Source: Owenia fusiformis | Lineage: Eukaryota > Annelida > Polychaeta > Sabellida > Oweniidae | Reading direction: 5' to 3' | Assembly (NCBI GenBank): GCA_903813345.2 | Contig: CAIIXF020000010.1 | Coordinates: 15,616,181-15,680,180, forward strand | DNA: 64,000 bases | Shown: positions 12,791-47,100 of the stretch, in pieces | Layout: each line of letters opens with the position of its first letter | Numbering within the stretch: position 1 is the first letter of the stretch | The notes under the pieces: generated by a model | Told to the model about the DNA's origin: nothing | Database searches by the model: none | Seen by the model: the letters and a program-made list of their open reading frames with translations, nothing else | Position numbers and translations under genes: made by a program

Positions 12791-13278
12791 CCCAACACCA
12801 CTGTTATTATGGGACTATTATTATGGGACCACTTTGTTCATTTGGTCTATTTTTAGAGTTGAGTAATATCAGAGATAGCTGCAGAATTCTGCCAACACCA
12901 CTGTTATTATGGGGCTATTATTATGGGACCATTTGTTCATTTGGTCTATTTTTAGAGGTGAGTAATATCAGAGATAGCTGCAGGATTCTGCCAACACCAC
13001 TTTTATTATGGGACTATTATTATGGGACCACTTTGTTCATTTGGTCTATTTTTAGAGGTGAGTAATATCAGAGATAGCTGCAGAATTCTGCCAACACCAC
13101 TGTTATTATGGGACCACTTTGTTCATTTGGTCTATTTTTAGAGGTGAGTAATATCAGAGATAGCTGCAGGATTCTGCCAACACCACTTTTATTATGGGAC
13201 TATTATTATGGGACCACTTTGTTCATTTGGTCTATTTTTAGAGGTGAGTAATATCAGAGATAGCTGCAGTATTCTGCA
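12791..13278 (-). repeat. Tandem array over the arrestin stop codon and 3' UTR
   Basis: Five units of about 100 bp (one of 87 bp) share the end of the arrestin coding region. Read on the minus strand, each unit repeats the last ~30 coding bases, the ACTCACCTCTAA stop context and about 65 bp of 3' UTR. The unit nearest the gene is the real 3' end; the others lie downstream of it. The variant CCATAATAAAAG in some units contains an AATAAA poly(A) signal (for example 13188-13193 and 13002-13007). Confidence 0.9.
13188..13193 (-). terminator. Probable poly(A) signal of the arrestin gene
   Basis: AATAAA on the minus strand about 45 bases past the stop codon. It is repeated within the downstream array, so several cleavage sites are possible. 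Confidence 0.5.
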
Positions 13279-13683
13279 CAGTCTGGGGCTCCTGTTCTGG
13301 TCTAGCTGTGAACTCAATTGCTCCTGGTTCACTCGCATACTCAGGTGAAAGTTCAGCCGAGTTAACGTTTGTATCAATAGTAATTGCACTTGGATCAGTT
13401 GGTAATGGTTGCATCACTTGTGGTTGTGTAGTAATGGGTTGTACCCCCATACTAGTTGATGGACCAAGTGAATGGTCTGATTGCACCGTAGCACCCTCCC
13501 CCGTAAGTGTCGGAGCAATGAGTGCATTGTTAGTGTATGATGCGTTACGTGAAGGTGGTGGTGGATTACGGTAGAATGTATACACTGGAGCATAGTTGAC
13601 TGAATCCCCTAGCTCTGTCTCATCCTCATCATCGTGAGTATTAACCTGGCCAAAGACACACTCGGCATAGGATGGTGGGGCAC
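13238..13683 (-). CDS. ARRDC: Arrestin exon 7, third PPxY and Pro/Thr-rich tail
   Basis: Acceptor ATTATTCCAG. Opens with APPSYAECVFGQVN, the third PPxY, then an acidic stretch and a low-complexity Pro/Thr/Gln tail ending NTAAISDITHL. The last ~30 coding bases belong to the tandem array that runs past the stop. Confidence 0.88.
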
Positions 13684-16600
13684 CTGGAATAATTCACAAA
13701 GTTAGGTTCTAGTCTTGCATTAAGCCTATTTAACACCTCAAGGGGAAGAAGAAAGAAAAGGGTAAGGTATTGAGACTCAATGCAAGGCTATTTAACATGC
13801 AAAATGCAAGCACCTGCCATTTGTTACAGACTCCTGACTTTGACCACTTAACAGCATTCACCAACAGCCGAACACCATCCACAAAAAAGAGATTTGTGGT
13901 GGTGACATGACTTAAATATTTTATTTATATACACAATTCTAATGGGATAAATGAATCATAAATATTAGGATTTGGACACATACTGGGAATTGCATCACCG
14001 AATGATTCCTCGTATGTTGGTGGCCTGAGGTACTCCTGACCAGGTGGTATTGGTACAGCTGCTGGCTGGCTTATGATTGGACCCTCTAGATGGTTGTAAG
14101 ATGGCGGAGAGAACAAATTCAGGAGTGGTATAGTTCCAATCTCAACTGTAAGGGGGAGCTCTATGGCTTGTGAGAATTCTGATTCTGTGTGTACTTGCAG
14201 CTGAAAGAATTTAAAGATATAATCTGGTAACGATATTTTTCTTTTTTACATGTACACTTTTAACAAGGCACATTTAAAACAGTTTGATTTCTTGGAATAT
14301 TGTATCAAGTCTAAGCCATGTATTCTACATATCTGATGTAATACAGTGGATGTGGATCCACAGATGTGACACTCTAATACTTATATATTATGAAAACCTA
14401 TGAATTATGCTTCCTCATGCCAAAGTGTACTATTCACACCATATTACAGGGTGTTTCATATGTATGCATCCCTTCTAAACTCATACATGTAGTATTGTCT
14501 CCCTATCATGTTATAGTCTTTTTTGAAAAGTTACATAACATTACAAAGTTTCAAAATCAAGGGGTGTCCATAAAAAAGACACAATGTATCAAAGTTTGCA
14601 GGTATGGGGTACTTTATAATATATTATATTTTTGTAAACATTATCTGTTCACTTTATCTGTTACCCATTTCTTGTAATAAATGTGGTACTATGGTCCCTG
14701 ACCTCCCTACAATGCACTGCATGAATCCTGTCTATACATTATGTGAACTCCAGAACTCTGGACTGAACTCTTCCATGATGACAACTGCTAGAAATGTGCA
14801 ATTTGTCCTTTAAATTGCCCTCAAAACCAAAAATTGCCAACATTGACCAAAAATTGCCCACATATCTTTTTTTCAGTAATACCCCTGGATTCTGGAATTT
14901 TGCAGTCTAATAATGTTACTTTCTGTGAGGAACAAAATGATAAAACATGATAGGGTGGCAATGCTACATGTATGAGTTTAAAGGGGGTGCATACATATGA
15001 CACACCCAGTAAATGCTTGTTATCGCTTTATCTGAACTGACAGTTAAAAAGGAATTAAATGTATGTTATAATGTAAAACATGTCAATGAACAGCAAGTAA
15101 CACAGCACATACCAGTAAAGTGTATTTAATATCAATGAAGGCACAACCAAGTAGATGGGAGGGAGGTACGGGTGGAATAGTGAGACCTTCATCCCTCCAC
15201 ACCTGAGTTCCCCCTGCCTCGACACCCCCCTTTGCAACACTAGCCACCAGTTTCCACTCATCCTTAGTACGATCTCGCTCCATTAAGAATATCGCATTTC
15301 GAACACCTTTGTATACTACATGCTGCAAGTACATGTAAACATGTGTTATCAATTTTGCTGTCAGTTTGATACACTTATTGTATTGCAAATACAAGATGCT
15401 CTGATACAGCAACCAAGAATTATCAAGTATAATTTTTCCACATAGATACATATACATGACCATATAAGGAATTACCTAATGATATATGTGAATATCCCAT
15501 ATAACATAATTGACCATATAAGGAATAGTCATGTGACATACAATATAAGGAAGTTCCTGTTCAATATACAGGTGAAACAATTATAACACTACCTGTGCAG
15601 GTTTAGTCAAAACCTATTCCTCAGGTAAGTTTAATCAATAATACTGTATACAACTCAGCAAAACTGTCATACTATAAATGCTAGGTATGTGTGACCCTTG
15701 AGGAGAGTGCAGCCAAATTCCTCATAGATTGTAACAATGTAAGGGGCGGGGTCAAAATATCAATGTTCATATGGAGACGAAAGTAATTTCGTTTGGACAA
15801 CAACCCCCCCACCCCCCCTCTAGACCAAAGCTTAGGTCACTTCAAAAAAACATTGATTTTGAGAGGCATAATCGTATCCTATTTGCCGGGTTATTATTAC
15901 GGTGAATTAACACACGTTCGCAATTTAACTGCATTGAACTCTTCAAAAGGTGGAGGGAAAAGTACGGAATTTATTTGAAAAATGATCGAATTATCGTCTT
16001 TATCTACCGATATTTTGGACCTATCACACAAAAAAGCTCACGAACTATTGAAAACAAGCCTTTTTATCAGAACATAGTGCCAGAAAAAGTGGGTAAGTCC
16101 AATTATTTTTTGTATATCAGATCCGAATTATCGATGTTTTTTTGGTCAACGAAAGTGCCCAAAAACCCCCTCCCCCTCGCGAAAGTACTTTCGTCTCCAT
16201 ATGAACATCGATATTTTGACCCCGCACCTAAGAGCATTCATATCTAGTCTCTAACATTGTAAAAGTTTGTAACTTTTTGTAAATTTAGTTTGTATCATAG
16301 AATGTAAATTTTGTAGCAATTAGGCGTTTTCAGTCTGAATGTATATTATCAACACTACATTAGAATCATGATGTTATGATTTTTCTATTTTGCTTATGAC
16401 TGTATATTTGTATATAAAACACATGTAAATAACTGTATAGTGACCCATGTGTCGGAAAGACTGACATATATAAGAGTCAATAAAAGAAAAAAAAGACTGT
16501 ACATTTACCTGATAAAGAGCAGCCCTCACATTCGTGACCTTCTCTGAACTCTCATTACATACTTCGGCGTTAATCAAAATAGCTTCCCCTGGAACATAGC

Positions 16601-18863
16601 CCCATCTATTGAGCATCACACTAGCGCGAACCTTTCCACGGTTAAAACAACAGCATGTTATCTCCCGTTCTGTACTTTTAGTTTTTGGAACCTGGAAGAA
16701 GAAACGGAAGTAAATGCAAATCTGTATATTGGCTTCTTGTTCGTTCATGAGGTGTTGTCATTAGAAGTCAAACACAGATGCAAGTAGGTAGTTACCAGTT
16801 TCACCACCAGGTGGCTCATCCGAGTTTAGATAGCATGACGGGTACAGTAAAAAGTTCCCTTTAACTTAAATTACATCTGTTTCAGTAGTTTACTTTTCAT
16901 ATAACCCTTATGTATCTAATAGTTATGCTAATTAAAACATGTGCAGTAAAAGAAAATGTTATCTGTCCAATACAGGAAGATATTTCACTTTTTGTGATTT
17001 TGTAACATAGGGTCTATGGGGAATCAACCCAAACTAAAAGTCACATTTTCAAAAAAAATTAAATTTTCAAAGTTGATAACCAATTTTCGAAACCATATTT
17101 AGATGTACTTTTACATGTAGCATGTAGATTTCAAATATGACATCACTTTGACTGAATTTTGAATATTTTAGGACATAAATCACGATTATTTCTACTCGCA
17201 TCTAGTCTATTAGCCACATGAATTATGTGCAACCGCATTGTCTATTTGAATTTGAAGGATACTCATGAGAGCCAAGATGAACATCTACTTGTTTTAATAT
17301 CCAAAAACTAGTTTTGGACATTTTTAATAGCGTAACTTGAAAATTGAGAAGTCTGCTCCTAGTTTAAGATTAAAATACAGAGGCCCATAGCCAGCTTTTT
17401 TCAAGGGGTTTTCACTTTCAAAAAAATTCAAGGTGGGGTTCACGTCACTCCCCCCACCCACCCCCTGGCTACAAGGCTGACGCACTTACCCTTATTTCAG
17501 TCATACAATTTAGGTCAAGCATACTAACAACACTGAATGCTTGTTTGGTGGACACATTAGCCTTCCATGGTTTAAAAATGGTTGCCTTGACTGTGTACCT
17601 CACTGAACCATATCCTCCCTCAAAGGTTGATGGCAATGTAGGTTTCATATGGAGACTGAAAGCATGGCGTGTTGTTCCAGCTTCTAAGACAACAGTCTCT
17701 GTATGATGCGAATCATTACCTACAAGTTACACAACCAAATAATGTGAAACATGCTTTTTACTGTTATGTACAATACAAGTGGAACACTATTTTGAATAAT
17801 ACAAAAATTGGATATTAATTAAATATAAATAAAACTATATACCGTATATTCAATTAAAAGCCAAACTGTTACAAAATGCTGTATGTTAAAAAATGTTTTC
17901 AAATAGAATTTTAAAATGGCGACTTGTAGTTTTTGTAGCGACCCTTGGGCACGCTCGTCGGGGAGCTGTAGCGTACCGAGCCAGATACTAGACTCCATAG
18001 AGAATGTGCTAAATTCAATGCCCCGTACGGGAATCAAACCCAGGACCTTCCGCTCTCGAGTCAGACGCTCTACCCCTGAGCCATAAAGGCTAGCCACTAC
18101 AGCTGAGACTGTAGTAGCGACTTGCTATCGAAGGTCATTACATTTTTTAAAAATTTGACTTAAAAAACAGCGCTTACCGAACACAACAAAAGTATTATTA
18201 AAGTAAGTTTCGGAATTCTTGTAAGTTTCTCGGGAACGTCCTGAACCTCGCTGCCACTTGGCTTTGGCTTTTCCTAATAACCTCACTGTTATCCCTATAA
18301 TAAAAAAACAACTTACTCTCAACATATACTTTACACTTAATACCTGAGGCCTTGGTATACGTTATAAAATGTTAAAAATCCCCCAGTGTACTTATGTTGG
18401 TAATGCCTAGTATATATGTAAATATACTAGATTTTACTATCTTAAGCTACTTACTCATGCAAATGAGTGAATAAGATGTAACAAAACAAGATAGATGTAA
18501 AACACAAGAAACTTTATTTTACTGTATACCCGGGCCTCAGCTTAATACTGTACTTAACACATACTACATGAAGCTCTCCACATAAGAACCAACCATGCTA
18601 CATTATACAGCCTTCTCGCCAGTGTAATATTTAATGTTATTTTTCAAGAAGATTCTATCCTAATTGAGAAAGTTATACCAAAATGAGAAGATTGTATTCT
18701 TTAGTGTTACCTTATATTTTATATTACTTTTTCAAATTCACTCACCTTTGATTTTAAGTGGGTTTTCCAAGTCTGTGTAGACATGGCCACTGAGTGACTC
18801 CCCAGCTCTTACGGCATTACTGTGATTATTAAAGACGATCTTGAAACTCTTAATCTTTCCCAT
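13238..18863 (-). CDS. ARRDC: Arrestin domain-containing protein (alpha-arrestin), 7 exons, 506 aa
   Basis: Alpha-arrestins are membrane-trafficking adaptors: the two arrestin beta-sandwich domains engage cargo receptors or transporters, and C-terminal PPxY motifs recruit NEDD4-family ubiquitin ligases. Exons are 18746-18863, 18178-18294, 17490-17719, 16509-16691, 15113-15322, 13984-14200 and 13238-13683, summing to 507 codons including stop. The N-arrestin domain starts MGKIKSFKIVFNN and carries GHVYTDLENPLKIKG, ITVRLLGKAKAKW and TFEGGYGSVRYTVKA. The C-arrestin domain carries EREITCCCFNRGKV and GYVPGEAILINAEV. PPxY motifs are PPSY at 318-321, PPTY at 346-349 and PPSY at 361-364. Order and spacing fit vertebrate ARRDC2/3/4, though the tail after the third PPxY is longer and Pro/Thr/Gln-rich. 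Which vertebrate paralogue it matches is not resolved. Confidence 0.93.
13984..14200 (-). CDS. ARRDC: Arrestin exon 6, two PPxY motifs
   Basis: Completes the C-arrestin domain (ELPLTVEIGTIPL) and carries PPSYN and PPTYEESFGDA, NEDD4-type WW ligands. It ends phase 1 at a weak CCCA|GTATGT donor. If that donor is not used, translation continues 22 codons into the intron and stops at an in-frame TAA (13925-13927), giving a shorter tail ending LELCI. Confidence 0.88.
14447..15009. mobile_element. 563-bp MITE with ~67-bp inverted ends, in arrestin intron 5
   Basis: Both ends, flanked by TA, share CATATGTATGCA, AAACTCATACATGTAG and CCCTATCATGTT in inverted order over about 67 bp. The CAGGGTGT-type tip links it to other TA-flanked elements in this window. 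No transposase is seen. Confidence 0.85.
15113..15322 (-). CDS. ARRDC: Arrestin exon 5
   Basis: Encodes the middle of the C-arrestin domain, ending LTIPPVPPSHLLGCAFIDIK, the family's IPP.PPS.L.C..I...Y motif. Phase 0 at both ends, with an ACTTGCAG acceptor and GTATGT donor. Confidence 0.93.
15743..16228. mobile_element. 486-bp inverted-repeat element in arrestin intron 4
   Basis: The ends share GCGGGGTCAAAATATC followed by ATGTTCATATGGAGACGAAA in inverted orientation, with two mismatches over ~43 bp. The interior has no coding capacity and contains C-rich tracts near both arms. It is a probable MITE of unassigned superfamily. Confidence 0.85.
16509..16691 (-). CDS. ARRDC: Arrestin exon 4, start of C-arrestin domain
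   Basis: Encodes the CCCF cluster and GYVPGEAILINAEVCN, matching the CC.F....GYTPGE pattern that opens the C-arrestin domain in ARRDC proteins. Phase 0 at both ends. Confidence 0.93.
17490..17719 (-). CDS. ARRDC: Arrestin exon 3
   Basis: Completes the N-arrestin domain with PSTFEGGYGSVRYTVKAT and FKPWKANVSTKQAFSV, the most diagnostic alpha-arrestin stretch. It ends phase 0 at GTAAGT after a conserved D.N.M run. Confidence 0.93.
17930..18100 (-). mobile_element. tRNA-derived SINE copy
   Basis: On the minus strand the sequence contains a box A (TGGCTCAGGGGTAGAGCG) and box B (GGTTTGATTCCC) at tRNA spacing, followed by a non-tRNA body. It lies inside arrestin intron 2. It reads through as an open frame, but that is a shadow. 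No CCA-type ends or full cloverleaf argue for a functional tRNA. Confidence 0.65.
18178..18294 (-). CDS. ARRDC: Arrestin exon 2
   Basis: Acceptor TTATAG, donor GTAAGC, phase 1 at both ends. Encodes GITVRLLGKAKAKWQRGSG and a segment ending FNNTFVVFG; the G.A...W pattern is a conserved N-arrestin strand. Confidence 0.92.
18746..18863 (-). CDS. ARRDC: Arrestin exon 1, N-arrestin strands
   Basis: Starts at the methionine of MGKIKSFKIVF, the standard alpha-arrestin beginning, and ends phase 1 at GTGAGT. It contains the AGESLSGHVYTDLE turn that begins the arrestin fold. Confidence 0.92.
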
Positions 18864-20430: not shown

Positions 20431-20436
20431 AAAAGG

Positions 20437-21330
20437 TCAATTGAGTCACATATTATTTTTCAAACAAGAATTACTCCTTCCCCACATTGTCTACATCTTC
20501 CAGGTTTGCACAAAGAGTGCAATTATGTACCTAGAAAAGCATTGTGAGAAAAAACGAAAAATATGAATATACAATTTAAATTTAATATATAACATGACAA
20601 ATCAATCTTACTCTATTTTCAATAGTTCGTATGTTGGTACGTGAATTGTTTTTACATACACGATTTAAATCTGTAAATAGCTATCGTTACTTTAGCAGAG
20701 AGGTGTTAATTTACATGATGCTAAGTGTAAGATTTTGATTATTAATCATAATTTAAGTTATCCCAATTTTCGACGAAACGTCCACTGAAGTGTAAATTGT
20801 TATGTCTCACAATGTCATAGGCGTAGCCAGGAGGGGATGCGATGGTGCCCCCCCCCATAACCAATGGAAATATGACCATGGTGATAGAGGAAAAGAGCCT
20901 TAAAATGCTTTTTATTTGAAGCTTCTAGCTCAATTTTGAAGGAAGTTACATACATTTTTATAAATTCAAAACAAGTTGTTGCTTAGTCGTTGCTTATGCC
21001 ACGATCACACACCCGCTGACTGAAAGCTGGCTACGCCCCTGAATGTACTTCGTGTGTTTGAAGTGATGATGTCATGCTGGTAAAGGGATTGCAAGCTTTA
21101 TTCCTGTTCTGGTCTACTGCAAAGAAACTTATGTTTTTACATACCCGTTTTTGGGGTACCCAGTTTTTTTCGACCGGGTACCAAGTTTGAACCCAGCATG
21201 GAGGATTTACTACCCGGTACCCGGTTTTTCTACAAACTCTAAATGCACTCTTTGTGCAAAACTGGAAGATATAGACAATGTGGGGAAGGAGTGATTCTTG
21301 TTTGAAAAATCACATGTGAATCAACTGAGG
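20437..21330. mobile_element. Inverted-repeat element, ~88-bp arms
   Basis: The arm at 20437-20522 is found inverted at 21243-21330, sharing TTTTTCAAACAAGAAT, CTCCTTCCCCACATTGTCTA and TTTGCACAAAGAGTGCA. The arms are not at obvious target duplications. It is probably a foldback-type non-autonomous element or two inverted MITE copies. Confidence 0.7.
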
Positions 21331-22004
21331 AATGCAGAAAATTTCCCACCATGCACCCTGACCCCAGAGAGTAGATCCTCAGCTTCCTGATGAATTTTCT
21401 TGGTCATTTTAGCACCTTGTGAAAGTTGAAACCCATTTGACCTTATCTAGTGTTGATTATCAAAGGGCCATATATAAAGGTATATTCAAGTGCGTGTCTT
21501 GTTGCCAAAATATACATCAACTACACAGTAACTGGCTGAAAAACACCCCCTAAAGTAATAAAACTTACTTTGTTTTTCTTAACATCCGGGACATTCAAGC
21601 ACAAGAAGAATAAAACCTAACTTCAATTATGATATCTCTGTATCCGATGTATTTAATAAAATTTAACATCTATTTTGAGACAAATATTTAATTGCTGATA
21701 TAAATTATAGTTAAATTTTGTCGAATGATTGGATTCCATGCAGAAAATTATGATGCCATCCTTATTGACATGATATGAGGTTCAAGGTGATCCCAAATTT
21801 TCGAATTTTTATGAAAGAATCCTACATTGATTTATGGTCGTCTTTGAGTTGGTAAGTAGTTCACTTGATATTACACCTATTATAGTTGATTTCGTTTATA
21901 GATAACATTGAAGCATTTTGGTATTTACTGTTGTGTTAGTTATTTGAAAGGTTGAAACAACTTTGTTATTTTTCAGTTTTTGAATCAATCCAAAATCGAG
22001 GATC

Positions 22005-22560
22005 ACTCATTCTTATCCCGTTCCCGGACTATAGTCCTGCACTGATCGCATTCATTTGCCTGTACGATTACAACTTGGTAGAATTATCTACGCCCCTCAC
22101 ACTTAAGATACCTACCTCAATGCATTATAGAACTCAAGATGTAACTTCTAATATATTGGAACCGCCGATTGTCTGGGTATATCGGCAGAACGGGAACATT
22201 TTCTCTTTTTCATCGAGAGAGATTCCATCACTTTTCAAAATGGCAGTTGGATTTAAAAGGGGAATCCCCCGTTTGGCTGTCCCGGATGTAGCCCGGAAGT
22301 ACCAATATGGAGGAATTTGACGGTTGAAATAAGTTAAATGTTACACGCAAATATTGCGATCAAAAACGAAAATGTCTTCGTTCTGCCGATAAACCCAGAC
22401 AATTGTGGATTCAACTACACGAAAAGAATGCTAAATTACCAAGGAATCTATTGAAGTAGGTATCTGAAGTGTAAGATCAGTAAAAAATTCTCCCATGTTG
22501 TAATCGCACAGGCAAAAGATTGAGATGTTCACAGGACCATAGTCCGGGAACGGGATAAAC
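22005..22560. mobile_element. Foldback element with two pairs of inverted blocks
   Basis: TATCCCGTTCCCGGACTATAG near 22014 recurs inverted near 22535, and GCCGATTGTCTGGGT.TATCGGCAGAACG near 22163 recurs inverted near 22390. The blocks are ordered as a palindrome with a loop of about 200 bp. The 122-residue open frame over this element has no recognisable domain. Confidence 0.7.
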
Positions 22561-24444: not shown

Positions 24445-27400
24445 GTAATTTTTGAAATCTACTTGTTTTAATTTTTTGCTGTAAATTGTATATAGTTTCA
24501 AAGGGAAATATTAGAAGCTGCTTACTACACATATGCCAGCTTATCATGGTTTTTTTCATTTTGCCAAGACATGCCTACATGTACTGGTCATCGTATATTT
24601 GAAGGCTTACCGGGTTTTCTGTTGTTTCCCAGGAATGTGTTGCAAGAATTCCTTAAAACTCATCCACAATCAAAAATGTTGGATTTTCAGTCATTTTGAT
24701 TGAAAATGAGAAGTCTTTAGTCTTATGATACCTATCAATTACAATCTACTCCAGTCTTCTTAAGGGGTTTCATAAGCAACAAATCTCTCCCTCTCGTTGT
24801 TACCTAAAAAATCCTGTTGTATCGAGGAATTTTCCACTTATTAAGTATTTACAAGTTTACTTTGCAATATTTTTTTGCCTGTTATTTTCATCAATTTTGC
24901 CTGTAATTAAAAAGGCTAATGAAACCCATGCTCATCTTTCAATATTTTCAGATTGAGAATGTATGCCATGAACTAATGCTATCTGAAGATGACTACAGGC
25001 AGATAATGAACCTGCTTCACAATGAGATGAATAAGGGACTGTCTAAAGAGATGCACGACACTGCTGATGTCAAAATGTTTCAAACGTTCATCCGATCACT
25101 TCCTGATGGCACAGGTCAGTAAAGTCATGATCATCAAAAATACATTAACAATCCTATTGATTCTCTCTGTATACATATTACATGTTAAAACTGCACAAAT
25201 GGTAAATGTACATATTTTGAGAATATATTTATTTATTCCGAAAACAAGTAAAACAGTATAAGATATAAATTTCATATTTGGCCTCAATGGTAGGTTCAAA
25301 ACACAAGTTTCAAAAGTCATTTTAACTTTTCATGTGGCCTATTAAAATTTTTGCAGATTCTCAACATGGATTTGAAATAAAACAATTGCATTTACTGTAA
25401 AACAATTCAATTCCAGAGGATGGAAGCTTTCTGGCATTGGATCTGTCGGGTCAGAGTTTCAGGGTGTTATATCTCACATTACACCCTGGTGGTGAGACTA
25501 AAGTGGAGCACAAGACCTTCCTTATTCCGCAGTCTATCATGACAGGCAAGGGAGAGCAGGTATGTTAGCCTTCCTTATTCTCCAGTATATCATGACAGGC
25601 AAGGGAGAGCATAATGTTAGCCTTCCTTATACCCCAGTATATCATGACAGGCAAGGGAGAGCAGGTATGTTATCCTTCCTAATACCCCAGTATATCATAA
25701 CAGGCAAGAGAGAGCAGGTATGTTAGCCTTCCTTATACCCCAGTATATCATAACAGGCAAGGGAAAGCAGGTATGTTAGCCTTCCTTATACCCCAGTATA
25801 TCATGACAGGCAAGGGAGAGCAGGTGTGTTAGCCTTCCTTATACCCCAGTATATCATGACAGGCAAGAGAGAGCAGGTATGTTAGCCTTCCTTATACCCC
25901 AGTATATCATAACAGGCAGGGGAGAGCAGGTATGTTAGCCTTCCTTATACCCCAGTATATCATGACAGGCAAGAGAGAGCAGGTATGTTAGCCTTCCTTA
26001 TACCCCAGTATATCATGACAGGCAAGGGAAAGCAGGTATGTTAGCCTTCCTTATACCCCAGTATATCATGACAGGCAAGGGAGAGCAGGTATGTTAGCCT
26101 TCCTTATTCTCCAGTATATCATGACAGGCAAGGGAGAGCAGGTTTGTTAGCCTTCCTTATACCCCAGTATATCATGACAGGCAAGGGAGAGCAGGTATGT
26201 TAGCCTTCCTTATACCCCAGTATATCATGACAGGCAAGGGAGCACAGGTATGTTAGCCTTCCTTATACCCCAGTATATCATGACAGGCAAGGGAGAGCAG
26301 GTATGTTAGCCTTCCTTATACCCCAGTATATCATGACAGGCAAGGGAGAGTGGGTGTTTTAGCCTTCCTTATACCCTAGTATATCATAACAGGCAAGGGA
26401 GAGCAGGTATGTTATCCTTCCTAATACCCCAGTATATCATAACAGGCAAGAGAGAGCAGGTATGTTAGCCTTCCTTATACCCTAGTATATCATAACAGGC
26501 AAGGGAGAGCAGGTATGTTAGCCTTCCTTATACCCCAGTATATCATGACAGGCAAGGGAGAGCAGGTATATTAGCCTTCCTTATACCCCAGTATATCATG
26601 ACAGGCAAGGGAGAGCGGGTGTTTTAGCCTTCCTTATACCCCAGTATATCATGACAGGCAAGGGAAAGCAGGTATGTTAGCCTTCCTTATACCCCAGTAT
26701 ATCATGAGAGGCAAGGGAGAGCAGGTATGTTAGCCCTCCTTATTCCCCAGTATATCATGACAGGCAAGGGATAGCAGGTATGTAAGCCTTCCTTATACCA
26801 CAGTATATCATGACAGGCAATGGAAAGCAGGTATGTTAGCCTTCCTTATACCTCAGTATATCATGTCCTTTTGAATAATTCATGGGTAGAACAGTTCACT
26901 AATACTGCAGTGGCTCAGGTTTAATCCCCAGTTCATGCAAGATAAGATTGTTGGGCTATAAGTGGTTCAGGGTGTTTTAGCACAGGTGGCAAAGATTTTG
27001 ATCTAAAGATTCGAAGTGACGAAGATCTATGAAAAAAACTACCTGAGAAACAGATAAACCATCAAAAGCGAATTTGATTTTAACCACTTGTGCTAATATC
27101 TTTTGAGCTTATCATTTAGGTAATTCAAACCAAGTTGAAGTATGCTTGAAGTACTAGGGAGTTATCTCAGTGTATTGTAATAGTTGACTTGTCCGATATC
27201 TGGTACAAATGCAATGAAATTAACATGTACATGGATAAAACATGATAAAATCTATGATATGTATTTGTATGTCCTCTCTATGACCCTTATGAGGTGAACG
27301 CATTTAGACTAACAGCTGATGGATGAATGCAAAGTGACTGAAATTTTGTTATTTTTAAGATATGGCTCTATAACTCAATGTCAATGGATTCTCCCATCCT

Positions 27401-30400
27401 GTTATATGTTGAAGGATTTCTAAATCAGCATCAGCAACCATTCACTAAATTATATAGAAAACAATGAATTCTTTGATATTATGAAAATTTCAAAACATTG
27501 TTTACTTATTACTGATGCTTTTATTGTCATGATTATCAATTTGGAAGGGATGACTATAAGTTTTAAAAGCCTAGATAACGAGACATGAGGAGTACAATGT
27601 AACTAGTAATCTCCAAATTAAAGTGGCACCAAATGAAAACAATATACAGTAATCACTTCTCAGTGATCTCTCCAGCATTAAAGCAAGTTGGTGTAGCACC
27701 CACCTGAGATTTTGAAAAAAGGCTATGGAAATCCATTTGCACCGACTTGAAAATGAGAAAATCATGAAAAATTGGCATATTTTGACAAATTTGGGTCTGA
27801 ATTGTGAAAATGGGAATTTTGCACCTACCTGAGAAAAAATCCTGGGGAGATCACTGCTTCTATGTACCAGGTCTTTTACAAATATATCTTGTGTAACTAA
27901 ACTAACTGTTTTTTCTCAATCATGATTTTCATCGATTAAGTCTTGGTTTAGTACAACTTAATAAAAGCTGAATTTGCATGAGATTAGTTCATGCTAACAG
28001 ATATGCTAGAGTTGGAATATATATGGTAATATTTTAAAGCAATGATTTAAAAATGAACTTTTTATGTCACCACAACAAGTGTAGAGATACAGGGTGATCA
28101 TTAAGTTCTGGGAATTGGTCTGCCATTTCAAGATTTCTCAACCATTTGAGTTGAAATTTTCAGCAGGTGTACATTGTATAATTCTGAATTGACAAGCAAT
28201 GTTTCATATACATATCACATCTACAATTTATTTTATTGTAATTACAAAAAAAGTAAAAGTGGTAAGTGGGTCAGCAAATTTTGACTGATGTTAATCTGAA
28301 AATTTCCTGCCAAAACATATTCAACTTGCCCAGATGGTTGCTTCAAACTACTTGTACTAGAGGCAGAACAGTACTCTTGAAGTCATTTATTCAGAAGTAT
28401 TCTTCATTGCTGAGAGGATCATTTCATTTATAATTGTTTCCATTAGCCTGGACGCACATGCGTTGTTGACAAACTTAGTCCATAAAGTTGTGTTCCAGTC
28501 CTCCCTTTGGTATCCTTTGAAGATTTGCCCAAGCCGTTGAAATCAGTCCCTCATCGGAATCAAACTTATGACCTCTCATATAATGCTTTAGCACCCAAAA
28601 TGTAGTGAAGCCTAATGGTGCTCCATGTGGTGAATATTGTCTGGTGAATATGGGGCAGTAATAACTTGTGTGAACCCTAATTCTTCAAGAGTAGTATGGG
28701 CAGCTTGAGTTATGGGAAGGAGCATAGTCATAATGGAAGATAATTCCCCGCTATTTTGAGTCACGATTGTGACTTTGAGATGCTGATGGATGATACAAAA
28801 ATAGAGCAAAGTACAGTCTTATATAACAATACAGATGTAACTTTAGAAACTAAAGTAAGAAGTATTTGAAAATATGAAAAATATGAAAAATCACAGAAAT
28901 ATGTCCACCAAATAAGTATTTATTAATCATACTTTTGGATCAAGCAAAATTTGAATTTATTTTTATTTTACTTGACCCGCTACGCCATTTGTCATGTTGC
29001 TATAGTAACAATAATTATCCATTGTGACATCAGATGACAATGAGACTGTTTTATCCAACCCAAAATTACATTCCCCATTTACCTTGAAAATTTCAAGTAA
29101 ATTGGTTTAAAAATAATGAAATGACAGATAAATTCCCAGAACTTAGTGATCACCCTGTATTGTTATAGTCTCCAAATTTTTGTGAACAGTGTTCAGTATA
29201 GTTCAATATGGTGACATTTTGCATGTTAATGCCTTGTAATGAACTTATTAAGAAATATAACTCATTTGATAGTTTATGTTCAGATCTGTTTTGTTAATTG
29301 CAAAATAACAGTAGAAAATAAAAATTTGACCAATCTGTTGAATCTGCAATATCAGAAAACAGGAAATTCAGAATATTCATTTCCTGGAAAACGGCTGAAT
29401 CTAAAGAATCAGAAACTAGGGTATTTCAGATTTTGTAAAAAATGAAGATTCTGTGTACACATCCTGATAAAAACAGAAACAATTGGCTTTTCTGGTCATG
29501 ATAGTAGGTTATGAAGATATTAAAAAATAGTTATACGGAGAACATTTAAGAAATAAAAACTTACCTTGCAGACAGCCTCTGTAGCTGCAAATATGTATAC
29601 TAAGAGCTATTGGGTCCACTACTATCCCATTGCATATTTTTGTAGTGTGTATCAATAGAATGACAAAGAGGACACCTATTCTTGTAATAATTTTGAACAT
29701 TTGTATTTTTGTTAACTTTTACGTTCCCTTAGTGCACAAGGAGAGTGATGTCCACATGTTAATGATATCATTCTTTTAGAGCCATGAGAATACATGATTA
29801 AACTATCACAAGGCTAACACATGTCAAGCTCAGTGTAAGCTATTGGTAATTATTTTGCCTACTGTTGTTGCCAAATATGTGGACAGACCCATTCTATTAA
29901 GATGTGCTGAGTACCAGAATGTCTTAGGTTAGACATGTTTTCTTATTTCAGTGAAAACTTAGACTGTGCATATGTAAGATAACTCAAGTTTGAAAAAATG
30001 CACTCCAGCAACTTTTTGGGCAGGTTGTACATGCAAGTAAGTGGCTAGTATTCACATTCGAGTTTACCCCCTGCTACTTCATATATTGAAGCTGTTTGAC
30101 CACATAGTTACATTGCAGGTATTTGACAATATTACTTTGTATATTGCAGTTATTTCACAATTGTACACTCCATATATTGCAGCTATTTGACAATTCTACA
30201 ATTTATATTGCAACTTTTTGACAATGCTAGATTTTAAATTGCAGCTATTTAACAATTCTACAATTTATATTGCAGCTATCTGACAATGATACAATTTATA
30301 TTGCAGTCATTTGACAATTCTACAATTTATATTGCAGTCATTTGACATTTCTACAATTTATATTGCAGCTATCTGACAATGATACAATTTATATTGCAGT

Positions 30401-33400
30401 CATTTGACAATTTTACGATTTATATTGCAGTTATTTGACAATTCTACAATTTATATTGCAGTTATTTGACAATTCTACAATTTATATTGCAGCTATCTGA
30501 CAATGATACAATTTATATTGCAGCTATTTGACAATGATACAATTTATATTGCAGTCATTTGACAATTTTACGATTTATATTGCAGCTATTTGACCATGTA
30601 GCAACTTGCATAGAGAAGTTTGTGAAAGATCGAGGTATTCCAGAGGGTGAGCTTCCGTTAGGGTTTATGTTCCCATTCCGTGTACGGAAGACGGGTCTTG
30701 CCTCTGCCACCCTGCTGGCTTGGGGGAAGGGCTTCCAGTGCAGTGGGGTCGTGGGGGAAGATGTTGTCTCTCTTCTACAACAATCTCTAAACAAACTACA
30801 GGTGGGTGATTCAACTTGTAATCCAGGATGGATTTTAAGTCCCTATATGAGTTCCTATACATTTTGAGCACATTTATATGGTTCAAGCTTCTTATGACTT
30901 GAATCTTATTTTTTGACATTTTTGATGAGTTTTCCATTTAATTTTTACAATTCTGCAAGATGAGCATCACTTAATATTTCCAGGGTATACGTGTGAAAGT
31001 GGTTGCCATAATGAATGATACTGTAGCTACCCAGATGTCTTGTGCCCATGCAGATAAGAACTGTCTCATTGGCTTAATACTTAGTAAGTACCCAGAATTC
31101 CACAACATGGGAAATCAATATCATGGTTGTCATTTTGTGAAGTAAAAAATGAAGAGCAGAATGATAATGTTGTCAAAAATATTTGTTATTACCTGAAAAG
31201 CTGTTTGACTCGATATGTAGGCACATTATGCCAAAGGAAAAGGACTGAATTGTGTGTCAAAACCCAGCAAGAAAAGTAAAAGATCTAAGTGTACACCAGT
31301 CATAATGAAAACAAACCCTGTCTTTCCCAAAGAATAATCCATCATGAAAAGAAACAATATTTAATACCCCCTCCCCACTGAAGTTTTTACAGTTATGTAT
31401 TGATCTGGAACCCTGTTTAATACCCCCTCCCCACTCGAGTTTTTAAACTTATGTATTGTTCATTAATTTGTATATTTTGCAGAGACTGTTCTTTATATAG
31501 TATATTGAATGGATTGTGTTCTTTAGGTAAAGGTATCAATGCTTGCTACTTAGAGAAGTTGGAGAATGTACAGTGTTGGGAGGGGGACCACAATGAACCC
31601 AAAACTGTGAGTAGACATGGATAGGTTATTATAAATACAACCAGCATGTAAAAGGAGAATATAAAGGGTGACACAAAAATGCAGCCCCTTAATTGTGATG
31701 GAATCTTTTTGAACTTTTCTCATTTGATAGTGTTTAGTCGGTGAAACAGTGGTAAACATAATATCATAGAAATCGAAAAATTGTGATGGAATCTTTTTGA
31801 ACGTTTCTCTCTTGATAGTGTTTAGTTGGTGAAATACTGGTAAACATAATTCCATAGAAATTGAAAAAGTTATTCTTCGGCTAAAATTAGAGTGTAGCAT
31901 TGTTCTATCAACTTGTACATAAAAATGTTCATGTACTTATTCCTCAGAATTCATTCTCAAAAGTATTTCAAAATTGAGAATTTCGCATCAAGTTCTGATC
32001 TCTCCAACACATGTAAAATCTTGTTTCTTATATTTTAGGTGATAGTTAATACAGAGTGGGGAGCATTTGGCAGCAATGGTGTTATAGATCAATTCAGAAC
32101 AGGCTGTATGCCCATGTAAAATGTTGTTGTTTTATGTTCTAGGTGATAGTTAATACAGAGTGGGGAGCATTTGGCAGCAATGGTGTTATAGATCAATTCA
32201 GAACAGGCTGTATGCCCATGTAAAATGTTGTTGTTTTATGTTCTAGGTGATAGTTAATACAGAGTGGGGAGCATTTGGCAGCAATGGTGTTATAGATCAG
32301 TTCAGAACAGGCTAGAATGTTTCTTATGTTTTAGGTGATAGTTAATACAGAGTGGGGAGCATTTGGCAGCAATGGTGTTATAGATCAGTTCAGAACAGGC
32401 TAGAATGTTTCTTATATTTTAGGTGATAGTTAATACAGAATGGGGAGCATTTGGCAGCAATGGTGTTATAGATCAGTTCAGAACAGGCTAAAATGTTTTT
32501 ATGTTTTAGGTGATAGTTAATACAGAATGGGGAGCATTTGGCAGCAATGGTGTTATAGATCAGTTCAGAACAGGCTAAAATGTTTTTATGTTTTAGGTGA
32601 TAGTTAATACAGAGTGGGGAGCATTTGGCAGCAATGGTGTTATAGATCAGTTCAGAACAGGCTAAAATGTTTCTTATGTTTTAGGTGATAGTTAATACAG
32701 AGTGGGGAGCATTTGGCAGCAATGGTGTTATAGATCAGTTCAGAACAGGCTAAAATGTTTCTTATGTTTTAGGTGATAGTTAATACAGAGTGGGGAGCAT
32801 TTGGCAGCAATGGTGTTATAGATCAGTTCAGAACAGGCTAAAATGTTTCTTATGTTTTAGGTGATAGTTAATACAGAATGGGGAGCATTTGGCAGCAATG
32901 GTGTTATAGATCAGTTCAGAACAGGCTAAAATGTTCCTTATGTTTTAGGTGATAGTTAATACAGAATGGGGAGCATTTGGCAGCAATGGTGTTATAGATC
33001 AGTTCAGAACAGGCTAAAATGTTCCTTATGTTTTAGGTGATAGTTAATACAGAATGGGGAGCATTTGGCAGCAATGGTGTTATAGATCAGTTCAGAACAG
33101 GCTAAAATGTTCCTTATGTTTTAGGTGATAGTTAACACAGAGTGGGGAGCATTTGGCAGCAATGGTGTTATAGATCAGTTCAGAACAGGCTAGAATGTTT
33201 CTTATGTTTTAGGTGATAGTTAATACAGAATGGGGAGCATTTGGCAGCAATGGTGTTATAGATCAATTCAGAACAGGCTAAAATGTTCCTTATATTTTAG
33301 GTGATAGTTAATACAGAATGGGGAGCATTTGGCAGCAATGGTGTTATAGATCAATTCAGAACAGGCTAAAATGTTCCTTATATTTTAGGTGATAGTTAAT

Positions 33401-36400
33401 ACAGAATGGGGAGCATTTGGCAGCAATGGTGTTATAGATCAGTTCAGAACAGGCTTTGATAAAGAATTAGATCTAAACTCAAGCAACCCTGGACACCAAA
33501 TGTAAGTTTATAAATGTATTTTTTATTGAAAAAAGTACCTCAGCATGGCTCATTAGTGAATTACAAACTATGCAAATACATGCATAAAATTAAATCTACA
33601 TTTAGGAGGGAATTGGTTTTAATTGAGCCTTGGACTTGTCAATTAAAAGGAATTATTTCAATATACAATGTACTTGTATTGTATGAGAAAGTTTGAATAT
33701 CTATACATTGACGTCATCTCTCCCCATTACCAAATTTTTCGGGAAAGAACAGCATATGACTTTAACAAAATGAAGGAATGTTATAATGATAATAGAATTA
33801 ATACCTGCGAGACATCAGTTTTCACTCTTTGTAATAACAGAATTATATTTACATGTACATATATCCTTTTGTTCACTAATTATACTGAGAAGTGAGATAA
33901 TATGGAAATTTATCCTTGTTTCAGATTCGAGAAGATGATATCGGGAGAGCACCTCGGAGAAATAGTTCGTCTAATAATGATGCGACTTGTCAATGAAAAA
34001 CTCCTTTTTAATGGAGCTGTCTCAGAAGAATTGCTTACTGCCAACAAATTCCACACAAAATATCTATCGGAGATCGAAGGGTAAGCAAAATGTACAGAGA
34101 GTAAGCGGGTTGTCCAAAAAGAAAGATCAAAAATTATGACACATTGAAATGAATAGGTTGATGTGTTTGGTCTATACTACAGTAGAAACTTCTTAGTGGA
34201 ACACCTCACAAGTAGAACAGATTTTTAGAGTACCTCAGCCCATTGACTCTTATGTTAATGAACCTCTATAAGTGGAACACCTTGCAAGTGGAACACGGCC
34301 TTATGACTCTATGTTAATGGACCTTTGTAAGTGGAACACCTCGCAAGTGGAACACTTTTCTATGGTCCAAAGGGCTTTCCACTTCCACAGATTCTACCAT
34401 AGTTCCCATTTGATTTGAAGTTGTTTCATGATTTTATGTCATCACCAAGAAATGTCTGTAACTAACTGTTACACTTTTATCACCAATTGTAACATACCCC
34501 GTTGGTGTCATTTTGTCATTTTAATGCCTTGTTCCAAAATTTCTGTAACCATAATACATACAGTTATTCTATAAGTTCTGTGTCTTCCTTGCAGTGACAC
34601 AAAAATGAAGGAAGATTATCGAATTACACGTATGGTTCTCCATGAAGTAGGTCTGGATGACGTCACATCTGAAGATTGCGCACATGTGCAGTATGTCTGC
34701 TCTGTGGTCTCAACACGTGCAGCTTACCTTATCTCTGCAGGTTAGTATTTTATATTATTTCACACACGGTTTGAATCCTGTGATCTAATTGGTTAATAGC
34801 TGACTGGAATTTTTTATATCTCACAGTCCAGAACTAGATTTTCTGTCCAATTGCCAAAAAACTTTTTTTTTCATTTGAAATGTAATCAACTTAATTGGCA
34901 GTTTATTTCATTTGAGGGAGGGGAGTAAAAAGGAAGCAGTTTGTAATTAATACAATAGACAAATATTCAAATGGTGCATTATTCTATGAACAGCGTCTAT
35001 GTCTATAATTTCAGCCCTAGCTGTGTTATTAAATCGTATTGGGCAAGCTGAAGTCACAATAGCAGTGGATGGACCTCTGTACAGGTTCCATCCCAAGTTT
35101 CACGACAGAATGATGGACAAAATAAATCAACTTGTAAATACAGACATACTGGTATGTAGTATTTTGGTGATTTGAGTTGTTAATGTTCATGTAGTATTTG
35201 TCATTGAGTGGATAAAAAAGGTCAATAGTAATAATTACAATTAATCAACTAATGTCATACTTACCATTTGAAATATCTCAAAATCATGGTTTGAAACATG
35301 TAGCATATAAGAAAATAGCCATGATAAAGAAATGGCGCCAAAATTTGCTTGATATACATTCCATGAACCTTGGTTGTTTAATAATTTGAATGTTGGCATT
35401 TTACATCTTAAACTTAAGTTAGTGCATGTTAGCTAGTGAACATTTAATATCACTTTTATACAATTATAATGAATTAATTTGCATGCATTGATATACTAGG
35501 TTAAACTTAAGCTTAATCCAGAGGGTCTTGCAAAGGGGGCAGCACTAGTGGCTGCAGTAGCAACAAAACCTTTATAATTGTAAAAGTTTTGTGCAGTTAT
35601 TCTCAGGGAGTTGTAAGTGTTTACACAAATAAAACTGACTTTTAAATTTGATACACTGTAGCACTTTATTAGCATCACTTTTTGTAACAATAGAGTTGCA
35701 CTAATGTGTCTTTATTCACTTAATAGATGGCACTGTCTACAGTTAAAAAGCTGTTTTTATTAACATTTTAACATTATCACTGGTGATCCACTCGATTATG
35801 TTAAATGTCGGAACGTCGAAGGTACGATTTTTCTTTTTTCCTTATTTCACGCATTTCACGCGTTGTAGACAGAATCCCCATGACGTTTTTTCTCACAAAC
35901 GTATATCAGTATCATATGTTTTAGAAAATGTTCATGTTAGCAAAAAAATAGCTCAGAAGACAACAGAATCGTCGATTTAATTCCTCACTTTAGTTACATA
36001 AACGGTTTTGGTTAAAAGTGCAGATCTTAAATGTTTTTCGAAAAACCGTTTATGTAACTTAAGTTAAGAATTAAATCGACGATTCTGTTGTCTTCTGAAC
36101 TATTTGTTCGCACATATGTACATTTTCTTAAACATATGATACTGATACACGTTTGTGTTAAAAAATGTCGCGGGAATTCTGCCTACAACGTGTGAAATAA
36201 GGAAAAGAGAAAAATTGTACCTCGACATTCCGACATTTTGTTACCAAAACGAACCGTTTCAGTAACCAGCGTAATCGAGTGGATCACCAGTGATCATGCA
36301 GAATTGGAATGAAAATACCTAGAACAAGTCGATAACGATTCTACCTTCATGTTTGAATGGCATTAAGCAGAATATGCTTGGAATATGTGAAATAGTTTGG

Positions 36401-39615: not shown

Positions 39616-39619
39616 ATTA

Positions 39620-40790
39620 TGTCACCACCAAAAGTGGTGACATATTGTTATGGTCTCCGTTTTTTTGTGACGGCGGTTGGTGGTTGGTGGTTGGCGTCCG
39701 GCGTCTGTAACAATTTCTTACAACTTCCTATAACTTTACAAATACTGTTTAGACTGACTTCAATTTTTTTCTAAATCATCTACATGTTCTCAGAAGTTCA
39801 AATCTGACTTTAGATTTGACATTTGACCTTCAATGACCTTCTCAAGGTCAAAAAGGTCTTTTTTCAACTTGCTTCACATTGACTAAATTTTTTTCAAAAT
39901 CATCTACATGTTCTCAGAAATTCAAATCTGACTTTAGATTTGACTTTAGATTTGACATTTGACCTTCAAATCTGACTTTAGATTTGACATTTGACCTTCA
40001 ATGACCTTCTCAAGGTCAAAAAAGGTCAAAAAGGTCTGTTTTCAACTTGCTTCAAATTGACTAAATTTTTTTTTCAAAATCATCTACGTGTTCTCAGAAA
40101 TTCAAATCTGACTTAAGATTTGACATTTGACCTTCAATGACCTTCTCAAGGTCAAAAAAGGTCAAAAAGGTATGTTTTCAACTTGCTTCAAATTGACTAA
40201 ATTTTTTTTTCAAAATCATCTACGTGTTCTCAGAAATTCAAATCTGACTTTAGATTTGACTTAAGATTTGACATTTGACCTTCAATGACCTTCTCAAAGT
40301 CAAAAAAGGTCAAAAAGGTCTTTTTTCAACTTGCTTCAAATTGACTAAATTTTTTTTTCAAAATCATCTACATGTTCTCAAAAATTCAAATCTGACTTTA
40401 GATTTGACATTTGACCTTCAATGACCTTCTCAATGTCAAAAAAGGTCAAAAAGGTATTTTTTCATCTTGCTTCAAATTGACTAAATTTTTTTTTCAAAAT
40501 CATCTACATGTTCTCAGAAATTCAAATATGACTTTAGATTTGACATTTTACCTTCAATGACCTTCTCAAGGTCAAAAAGGTCTTTTTTCAACTTGCTTCA
40601 AATTGACTAATTTTTTTTTTCAAAATCATCTACATGTTCTCAGAAATTCAAATCTGACTCTAGATTTGACATTTCACCTTTAATGACCTTCTCAAGGTCA
40701 AAAAAGGTCAAAAAGGTCTGTTTTCAACTTGCTTCAAATTGACCTTTAGGTGGTGACATTTTGTCATGTTAATGCCTTGTTTCATCTTTT
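39620..40790 (+). repeat. Repeat element with ~7 TGACCTT-rich internal units
   Basis: Starts with the self-complementary TGTCACCACCAAAAGTGGTGACA and ends GGTGACATTTTGTCATGTTA then ATGCCTTG. Between lie about seven units of ~115-150 bp holding CAAAATCATCTACATGTTCT, ATTCAAATCTGACTTTAGA, ATTTGACCTTCAATGACCTT and CTCAAGGTCAAAAAAGGTC. No coding capacity is seen. Confidence 0.88.
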
Positions 40791-43700: not shown

Positions 43701-44093
43701 TGTCATTCAACCACTACACAATTGTCATTCAACCACTACACAATTGTCATGCAACCACCTGTTCCTCATCTTCGCCTTTTCCTCAACACCGCTATGGCTA
43801 ATCAAGGCTGAAGTGTTCCAAACAGTTCACCACTGATGTTTTGTAAATGAACAATTGGCAATACATTTCCTGTTTACCTATGAGATTAATTTATATTATC
43901 ATTTTGCTAAGTCAATTTCCAGTTCCCAGTTATCCTGTATTTGTATCATTCATTTATATATTGCAATGTATTTTTCACAGCTACCTTTTCACCATTGAAG
44001 TGAAGATATCACATATTTTCATGATGTCTTTATTTGGAGTAGTATTGATGGTATTCCCATCATTCGTCTGGTTCAGTCCCATAATTCATAGCA
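40791..44093. other. Convergent spacer between hexokinase and Dixin
   Basis: AT-rich, no gene. AATAAA near 41952 (plus) and TTTATT near 42390 (minus signal) are possible distal poly(A) sites. A small direct repeat of ATTGTCATTCAACCACTAC (three copies, 43697-43755) is present. Confidence 0.5.
44029..44034 (-). terminator. Probable Dixin poly(A) signal
   Basis: AATAAA on the minus strand, 60 bases after the Dixin stop codon. It is the nearest such signal. Confidence 0.5.
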
Positions 44094-44168
44094 TTACCCA
44101 TGATCCTCCTCTATCCATGCCACTATCTTGCCTTCCCATCCTGGTATGATGTCATCATCTTGATCCAT
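44094..44168 (-). CDS. DIXDC1: Dixin exon 17, end of DIX domain
   Basis: Acceptor CATCTTCCAG, then [20 protein letters not shown] and EDHG before TAA, matching [20 protein letters not shown]. Confidence 0.97.
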
Positions 44169-47100
44169 CTGGAAGATGGATGGTAAACATGTTAAGATAA
44201 TTCAAAGGGTAAACACTTGAGAACACAAGATGTAAATTAACCCTACTATCACACCACACTAGTTCTCACTACGTTCTCGAAAACGGGCTTCAACTGTGTA
44301 CGAACGGACTGGACCTACTGAGAACCGTTTGGGATCTATTTACAAACTTCATCAAACGTACTCGAACGGGTAGGTCCTCTAGAACTCAGACAATGCTCAA
44401 AATATTCTCGTGGTCGTCACGTTCTACAATTAGAACGAGTGAAAACGTACTAACAACGAGCTGGACGTACTACGAACGGAACCGTCGTACTTCAATCCTA
44501 CTAGGGACGTTTTAACAACAAGTAGAACTGTCTGCGGACGTGTTTAGAACGAGGTAGAACTAATTGCAAACGGGTTTAAACTGATTAAGAACGTATTTAA
44601 CACTGCTTATGAACGAGTTAGCAAAAATATAGCTATTTACGAACTTACGAACTTACGAGATGGACGTATTGAAGACTGTTTAAGAACGAAGAAGCTAATT
44701 ATTTCAGACATATTTCCCGACCACAGCCAGATTGAGCCTGTTTTACGACGTTTTCGTAGGACTGGCAAGAACGGGTAAGAACTAGTTTGGTGTGATAGGG
44801 GGGTTAGAGGGTAAACTTAAAAGGCAAACTGACAAGATATGTTCAGGAGAAAATTCCTAAATTAGCTACAAAAACTCATCAAGAACACATTTCAGAGCAA
44901 TATATATTACACATTGAACATCTTTTTATTTTAATTATGAGCATTACACAAACAGAAAATACCTCTTCTTTTACAGTACCAAACTCTGGATCTAGTGCTT
45001 TAAAGTGGTACTTACCTCTTCTTTTACAGTGCCAAACTCTGGATCTAGTGCTTTAAAGTGGTACTTACCTCTTCTTTTACAGTGCCAAACTCTGGATCTA
45101 GTGCTTTAAAGTGGTACTTACCTCTTCTTTTACAGTACCAAACTCTGGATCTAGTGCTTTAAAGTGGTACTTACCTCTTCTTTTACAGTGCCAAACTCTG
45201 GATCTAGTGCTTTAAAGTGGTACTTACCTCTTCTTTTACAGTACCAAACTCTGGATCTAGTGCTTTAAAGTGGTACTTACCTCTTCTTTTACAGTACCAA
45301 ACTCTGGATCTAGTGCTTTAAAGTGGTACTTACCTCTTCTTTTACAGTACCAAACTCTGGATCTAGTGCTTTAAAGTGGTACTTGAAGTTTCCAGGTCGT
45401 GTAACAATCTGTTTGATATCTCTAAGAGTAATCTCTCCTAACCTAAAATATAACAAATGAAATCTATTTTTATTTACCTCCCAAAGTAATATTATTACAC
45501 CTAGTGCCAACTATGCAAAAGAACCCCGTATTCTTGTTGATTGTGCAGACAGTCTGATACAAATGTACACAAACACACCACATTCTTTTATAGAGGTTAG
45601 AGAATGGAGACCATTTAGCCAAGTAATCGCAAAAACCAATTACCCCATACACTGCCTGACTGTTATTAGTCCATCCATATAGCTCAGCTGTAGCGCGGGT
45701 ACCTCTTATGCAATAGGTCCCAGATTCGATCCCTGGTTCAGGCAAGACTTAATTTTCTCGTTTGCGTAAAGTACTTCGGGGTGTTTGACTGAGTGGTCCA
45801 CAACTCGTACAAAAGGCTGTGGTGTGTACTTGTATGTCCAAGTATGAGTGCACATAAAGGAACACAGGGCTCCTTCAAGGAAGGGTTTCTGGGTTCCAGG
45901 CTAATTACGTTAATTACTACCGTTTATGTACGGAATATACCCAAGAGGTATTGCTCACCTTAATTGGTGATAAACAAAAATACAATACAATTAGTATTAC
46001 CCTACCCACCCATGACCCAACGAATTTCAATATAGGCTCACCCAATTTGACCTGACTGACCTCAAATTTGTAGTTACCTTTTTGGAATGTTGCACATGAA
46101 TGGGGTGACAGTTCTGTCAGTGAAGTATAGCACCTTTGTCAATTGTTGGCCATTAGCTGGTTGGTTGTCAAGTCTCTGTACAGGAAAGCCTACAAAAGCA
46201 TTCAGTTCAAACTCAAAATTGTCCAATTCAATATGAAAGATATTTAGTACACAATAATGTGGAAGCACAGTGTTTTACTAAACATCCCAGATCTGCAATG
46301 AAGTTTATATGAATAAATTATGTTCTACCAAAGGAAGAAAATACATAAGCTTCATTCATGAAGAGATATTTCTTTGTTTCTATTAATCTTGTAAATAGCT
46401 TAGTATTTCAGTTAGTCTTACCTGGTAATGCTGTAATAGGGGACCGCCTGGTGTCCCCAGTGGAATCAAAGTTCAGTCTTCTAGTTATGCTGTCACTGGA
46501 ATCCTGAAACATAATATGGATGACTTGTTGAATTGAAAGTGGCCATATAAAAAATTCGAAATGGCCACCAAGTAATTTACCCAGCATACCCTAAACCTAA
46601 TCAGATTTTGGCACTAGTCCATTCTTGCATCTGCAAAAATTTCAAGTTGAACGGGTTAACAGTTTTCCTGAAATTTTGATGACAAGAATTGATTCATTTG
46701 GCGTCCACTTGCACATCTAAACACCCACACACCCATCAGCATTAGATGACAACAAAGTGCCATGTATATGTACAGGGTGGTCCAAAAAATGGGACACTTG
46801 TATTACAAAAATAAATATTGATTTTCTTTGGTTTTTGCAAATTTTGGAAAACCCGTTTTGAAACGAAAATGACGTCATTTATATAATGGACGCTGATTGA
46901 CAGACATAATAAATTTGAACTCATGATGTACCAAATTTTAAATAAATAAATTCCCTATCCATTGTTATATAATATGATATATTTTCATAAATAAAATCAA
47001 TATTTATTTTTGAAATATGAGTGTCCCATTTTGTGGATCACCCTGTATAAGTATATTGGTGTAGTAATGTCAGCAAATCCAATGGAACAAAATTACCATA

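Follow-up and report, generated by a model that had tools for sequence, protein, structure and literature searches.

Five tandem arrays in three neighbouring genes of Owenia fusiformis copy exon–intron junctions (four arrays) or a stop codon (one array), and they are most probably mirage-type minisatellites, that is, in-place duplications straddling a junction, or once the stop codon, that grew into arrays and are tolerated by splicing. The duplications are in tandem and in place, nearly all of the decoy splice sites that they carry are intact, the use of any decoy examined would lead to a stop codon, and arrays of this kind recur in other genes. The DNA that was analysed is a stretch of 64,000 nucleotides (the window) on a 37-Mb contig of a 498-Mb assembly, and the coordinates of the arrays and genes below are positions in it. 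Array calls were made by Tandem Repeats Finder, which finds all five arrays at the places given by the initial annotation, with scores of 566-2343. The arrays and their host genes are as follows.

A1: 12792-13277, minus strand, 100/86-bp array of 5.0 copies on the stop codon and 3′UTR of the arrestin-domain gene
A2: 25516-26865, plus strand, 53-bp array of 25.5 copies by Tandem Repeats Finder (25 analysed) on the donor of exon 25417-25559
A3: 30099-30596, plus strand, 31-bp array of 16 copies on the acceptor of exon 30586-30801 (by Tandem Repeats Finder 30108-30594, 31 bp, 15.6 copies)
A4: 32010-33455, plus strand, 104 bp x 2.9 and then 88 bp x 13.9, on the acceptor of exon 33389-33501
A5: 44960-45384, minus strand, 53-bp array of 8.0 copies on the donor of the DIX-domain exon 45334-45442
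Arrestin-domain gene, incomplete model: 13238-17655, minus strand, from Pfam hits and splice-site scores, with exons 17490-17655, 16509-16691, 15113-15322, ~13935-14200 (donor uncertain) and a last exon at ~13238-13683
Hexokinase gene: 24952-35151, plus strand, nine exons joined (first and last exons not found), at 24952-25114, 25417-25559, 30586-30801, 30984-31083, 31527-31606, 33389-33501, 33925-34080, 34595-34740 and 35015-35151
CH/DIX-domain gene: 45334-53463, minus strand, 11 exons modelled by splice-site score, most of them without domain support

The exon edges on which the arrays had been placed are real. The joined nine-exon hexokinase product matches two hexokinase Pfam models (5e-67 and 6e-62) and aligns to hexokinase-2 (PDB 2nzt) over residues 5-413 of 418, with no gap at the junction common to A2 and A3 and 3 inserted residues adjacent to the A4 junction. 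On the minus strand, Pfam finds Arrestin_N (6e-16) and Arrestin_C (7e-8 and 2e-8) in the first three exons of the arrestin-domain gene and no hit in its last two, as well as CH (1e-7) at 53317-53643 and DIX (7e-15) at 45313-45510; from this combination of domains we take the CH/DIX-domain gene to be DIXDC1-like. Some residues of the hexokinase are altered in otherwise matching stretches, namely LALDLSGQSFRVL vs LALDLGGTNFRVL and LSKGINACYLE vs VGTGSNACYME (in each case the second is hexokinase-2, PDB 2nzt), and judging by these changed residues the hexokinase activity may be altered.

Two other elements were seen in the window. The stretch at ~45678-45760 resembles by eye a tRNA-derived element, and a scan of the window with ARAGORN gives no tRNA gene. 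At ~20591-20974 there is a high-copy repeat of ~390 bp, which has at least 39 other copies with 84-91% identity (40 scored of 3204 candidates), most of the scored copies having a nearby inverted partial copy of up to ~170 bp.

In the initial annotation the arrays were described as starting exactly on the exon boundary, with the real exon edge as an end copy. The first part of this description has to be corrected, as the arrays span the boundary: the A2 unit is composed of 44 exon bases and 9 intron bases, the A5 unit of 48 exon bases and 5 intron bases, the A3 unit of 20 intron bases and 11 exon bases, and the 88-bp unit of A4, which is preceded by ~3 copies of 104 bp, of 22 intron bases and 66 exon bases. 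The second part is right, and the copy on the exon side is the true one in 4/4 junction arrays of the window. At donors the true site comes first among the copies and at acceptors last, so that all of the extra copies fall outside the coding sequence. The near end of A4 continues into the remaining exon and its far end into intron sequence, which is what is expected for a tandem duplication across a junction. In mirages the inner units are homogenised and those at the border are left out of this; for the arrays here, the border copies were compared with the consensus used, with a mixed result: 3 bases are different in A2, and those of A4 (0.98) and A5 (1.00) are nearly identical to it. A2 and A3 occupy opposite ends of one hexokinase intron, with donor copies at one end and acceptor copies at the other.

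A1 has no splice edge, and its stop codon lies within the last coding exon. Its unit repeats the final codons, the stop and the beginning of the 3′UTR of the arrestin-domain gene. The assignment to two donors, two acceptors and one stop codon stands, and the poly(A) signal that was said to go with the stop codon is there only in part, with the stop triplet kept in 5/5 copies and the canonical AATAAA in 2/5. Two further sizeable arrays of the window, at 9330-9779 (104 bp) and 39929-40743 (136/284 bp), lie on no modelled exon edge.

The most probable origin of these arrays is that a short segment which by chance straddled an exon–intron junction, or in A1 the stop codon instead, was duplicated in tandem at its place, and that the array would then have grown by slippage or by unequal exchange. 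A neutral origin of this type had been taken as the default explanation from the start, and it is a sound one.

The initial annotation knew of no named class for such arrays, yet the class already has a name. Such repeats were reported earlier in the lancelet Adh3 gene and named mirages (PMC3087553), and PGBD5 (60/108 bp) and troponin C were described as further lancelet cases (PMC3902484). According to the description of the Adh3 and globin cases, both exon boundaries can be affected, many repeats retain AG/GT, and the units are 10-72 bp long in Adh3 and 150-160 bp in globins; in one globin gene the copy number differs between two haplotypes, and, to judge by the Adh3 data and by RT-PCR of globins, regular splicing seems to be undisturbed in lancelets (PMC3087553). 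A mirage-based model of intron gain was proposed in the same work (PMC3087553).

Judged by their sequence, the junction arrays of the window have the structure by which mirages are defined. The units of A2-A5 span exon and intron, a feature that A1, being without a splice junction, does not share. Both kinds of edge are hit here, donors by A2, A5 and the arrays at the kinase loci L057 and L072 (described below) and acceptors by A3, A4 and the arrays at L056, L057 and L089. AG or GT is kept in many, though not all, units of the window (60/62), and the lancelet unit lengths that were described bracket those found here. The arrays differ from the lancelet ones in a copy number of up to 25 and in the position of A1 on a stop codon and 3′UTR, for which no counterpart was found among the lancelet cases described. 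The G+C content of the window is ~35%, and that of lancelets is ~41%. In the literature searched, mostly at title level, no report of mirages outside lancelets was found, and nothing further was recognised, judging by titles, as similar arrays under other wording.

Two other known systems are close to these arrays. The origin of introns by tandem duplication has been reviewed (PMC3443670), and the AGGT model of intron gain by tandem genomic duplication has in common with our arrays that splice-site sequence is copied in tandem within a gene. However, in that model an exonic segment makes a new intron, whereas here an existing junction is copied and an existing intron is lengthened; nothing seen at the four junction arrays (between hexokinase exons and beside the DIX-domain exon) indicates that the duplicates have given rise to a new intron. 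Intronic minisatellites or VNTRs are similar in period, copy number, local origin and, probably, growth in place, but in the arrays described here a splice site and exon sequence belong to the seed.

Junction-spanning arrays had been suspected to be recurrent, and they are indeed present in other genes. We sampled kinase exons across the genome, with 227 edges in 76 loci and 173,154 bases. From 144 kinase matches, 87 in these 76 loci were taken as exons, leaving out 14 of 30 returned loci (for the most part with an almost complete domain in a single open frame) and the unfetched matches. Removing 20 edges for which no credible splice site was seen close to where the match ends from the 174 possible ones gave 154 edges, and a home-made kinase profile added 39 more exons with 73 of 78 edges, for the total of 227.

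Junction-copying arrays span 5/227 of the kinase-exon edges (the acceptor and donor of one exon at L057, the donor at L072 and the acceptors at L089 and L056), and in 5/5 the junction copies are confined to the intron side. A sixth array, at L025, abuts a donor: it is a 23 bp x 35 array that begins exactly at the donor, with zero exon bases. By their translations, the exons at these loci presumably belong to kinases resembling PAK, MEK, CDK-like, PKN and NDR/LATS. The kinase exon of L057 carries separate arrays on its acceptor and its donor, at positions 525-853 and 1066-1206 of that locus. L102 is a borderline case (21 bp x 2.0, score 70), counted as spanned at a score threshold of 60 and gone at 100, and no junction copy was seen in it. 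With the abutting L025 included, the sampled rate is 6/227 edges, or ~2.6% (95% interval 1.0-5.7%).

One possible option is that junctions are genuine hotspots, either because arrays start there more often, through transcription- or splicing-coupled breaks, R-loops or the composition of the edges, or because arrays are preferentially retained there. Random seed placement speaks for it: at a score of at least 100 (24 arrays), 6 of the 227 kinase edges are spanned or abutted vs 2.16 expected (P 0.023), with 7 vs 2.70 (P 0.021) at a score of 60, where weak arrays are included, and 6 vs 1.87 (P 0.012) at a score of 200, where only the strongest are counted. Also on this side are the 4/48 modelled window edges that are hit and the exon of L057 with both its edges affected. 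These seed-placement results hint that junctions may be hit somewhat above random. Yet, when 17 edges of hexokinase paralogues, none of them spanned, are added, the result becomes 6 vs 2.55 expected (P 0.046), and it becomes 5 vs 2.55 (P 0.12) once the abutting L025 is also omitted.

A second null, the position control, gives no peak at the edges. Edge-centred 40-base windows were duplicated (tandem duplication at 80% identity within 600 bp) in 4/154 cases, against 5-9/154 at intron offsets of 100-620 bp; this control covers 154 edges and is the less strict null, as it counts bases, so that long arrays weigh more. In the 64,000-nucleotide window itself, 4/49 listed edges compare with 4-7/49 at intron offsets of 100-300 bp and with 155/1565 windows overall, where one of the 49 is spurious (a weak donor inside the terminal arrestin exon), which leaves 48, and the edges of unfound exons are missing. 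The 4/48 edges of the window vs 6/227 in the kinase sample give a Fisher P of 0.077, for a window that was chosen for this feature. The exon-proximal ends of the arrays numbered 3 in the bin from -75 to -25 and 3 in the bin from -25 to 25, vs a mean of ~2.2 per 50-bp intron bin, in a count that lacks the 54-bp array of L072, which was merged into a longer row; this is weakly the same picture as in the other tests.

The comparison with random placement that was originally called for therefore has a divided outcome in the kinase sample, with a borderline excess in seed placement and none in the position control; the two nulls disagree mildly and there is no clear excess. True hotspots are unlikely in our view, though a moderate, two- to three-fold excess at junctions may exist. 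A special process that amplifies junctions, as first proposed, is not needed for 6/227 kinase edges with a borderline excess and no edge peak, and the premise that exon sequence should seldom be part of an ordinary intronic minisatellite holds poorly, given that ~5% of the sampled kinase loci is taken up by arrays with a period of at least 15. A wider form of the idea is that junctions are the preferred birthplaces of arrays (~two- to three-fold) and that thousands of them carry intact stacks of decoys and are an ongoing source of new introns. Scaling to thousands of junctions is an extrapolation from 5-6 of the 227 sampled edges, and we regard this proposal as doubtful; if true, such birthplaces would amount to a permanent experiment of nature on the choice of the correct site by the spliceosome.

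Another question that is raised by these arrays is how the true splice site is chosen among its copies. With the true sites counted, GT or AG is intact in 24/25 copies of A2, 8/8 of A5, 15/16 of A3 and 13/13 of A4 (the 88-bp copies listed). In 39/59 cases (A2 19/23, A5 6/7, A3 3/14 and A4 11/15) the score of a decoy is no lower than that of the true site on a simple consensus whose frequencies come from general knowledge rather than from this genome. The true site gives an open frame, and the use of a decoy would give an in-frame stop in 59/59 cases examined (A2 23, A3 14, A4 15 and A5 7). Because so many decoys equal or exceed the true site, motif strength alone is unlikely to be the selector, and pairing across the exon likely picks the true site, as established splicing knowledge would suggest. 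Under exon definition, the true site would be paired across the exon with whichever partner site is closest, and extra copies on the intron or 3′UTR side would leave the coding sequence unchanged as long as the exon-side splice site is used. It is likely that the arrays are tolerated in this way; nonsense-mediated decay may be a further reason for the tolerance, and the arrays may be nearly neutral.

Another hypothesis is that the decoy arrays are functional, for example in that decoy splicing and decay would reduce the output of hexokinase, or in that the arrays regulate splicing. The retention of nearly every splice dinucleotide, the stop that follows from each decoy and the presence of donor decoys at one end of a hexokinase intron and acceptor decoys at the other would all fit such a role, and in A3 the AG is changed in 1/32 bases vs a unit average of ~0.115 per base, which may be a weak hint of constraint. 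However, young homogeneous arrays retain their sites without selection, and the GT of A2 varies by 0.04 per base, similar to its neighbours (0.035 for exon-derived and 0.080 for intron-derived bases). Such arrays are also found in other gene families, and the related hexokinase exon on contig C5 has no array. A function of the decoys is therefore very improbable.

Arrays of near-identical copies are prone to assembly error, by which repeats are collapsed or over-expanded, and the exact copy numbers given here could be wrong. That the arrays as such are an artefact of this type is scarcely credible, as the copies differ mutually (by the per-base values given above for the exon-derived part of A2 and for A3), the true edges are coding and correct in the hexokinase-2 alignment, and similar arrays are found at other loci and were described in lancelets (PMC3087553). 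Finally, although introners are known to supply intron sequence (PMC9860276), the insertion of dispersed introner-like mobile elements at exon edges has practically no probability, since every unit holds exon sequence of its own gene and the units searched are not dispersed in the assembly.

This search, which needs queries of 60 or more bases, took in A1, A2, A4 and A5 and skipped very common words, which limits its sensitivity. The unit stretches of A1, A2 and A5 match nothing but their own locus, and the only match of A4 elsewhere, at 74%, is to a single exon of a hexokinase paralogue that lies on contig C5. At this sensitivity the four arrays are local duplications, and for them a mobile-element origin was ruled out by the lack of copies in many genes. 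The repeat finder detects no array at the paralogous exon (locus L045), and A4 is not common to the C5 paralogue. Apart from paralogues, no second copy of the searched parts of the window was found in the assembly. COX1, sought as a mitochondrial marker for placing the animal, was not detected in the assembly either. Elsewhere, three mitochondrial-carrier exons are present both at G000:C2:17735848-17738577 and at G000:C483:308525-311197 with similar but not identical spacing; this pair may reflect a haplotype that was not purged or a recent duplication, and it could serve to test the variation of array length.

What is new here is a further case of the already named mirage class and not a new class, and a new junction-amplifying process is not established. 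Mirages would probably occur, with this case, in a phylum other than that of lancelets. If the sampled rate holds genome-wide, this genome would hold far more mirages than the few lancelet genes described in two studies (PMC3087553; PMC3902484). With up to 25 near-identical donors beside the true one, these arrays may be natural substrates for tests of exon definition and splice-site fidelity, and the same arrays may serve as substrates for testing the mirage model of intron gain.
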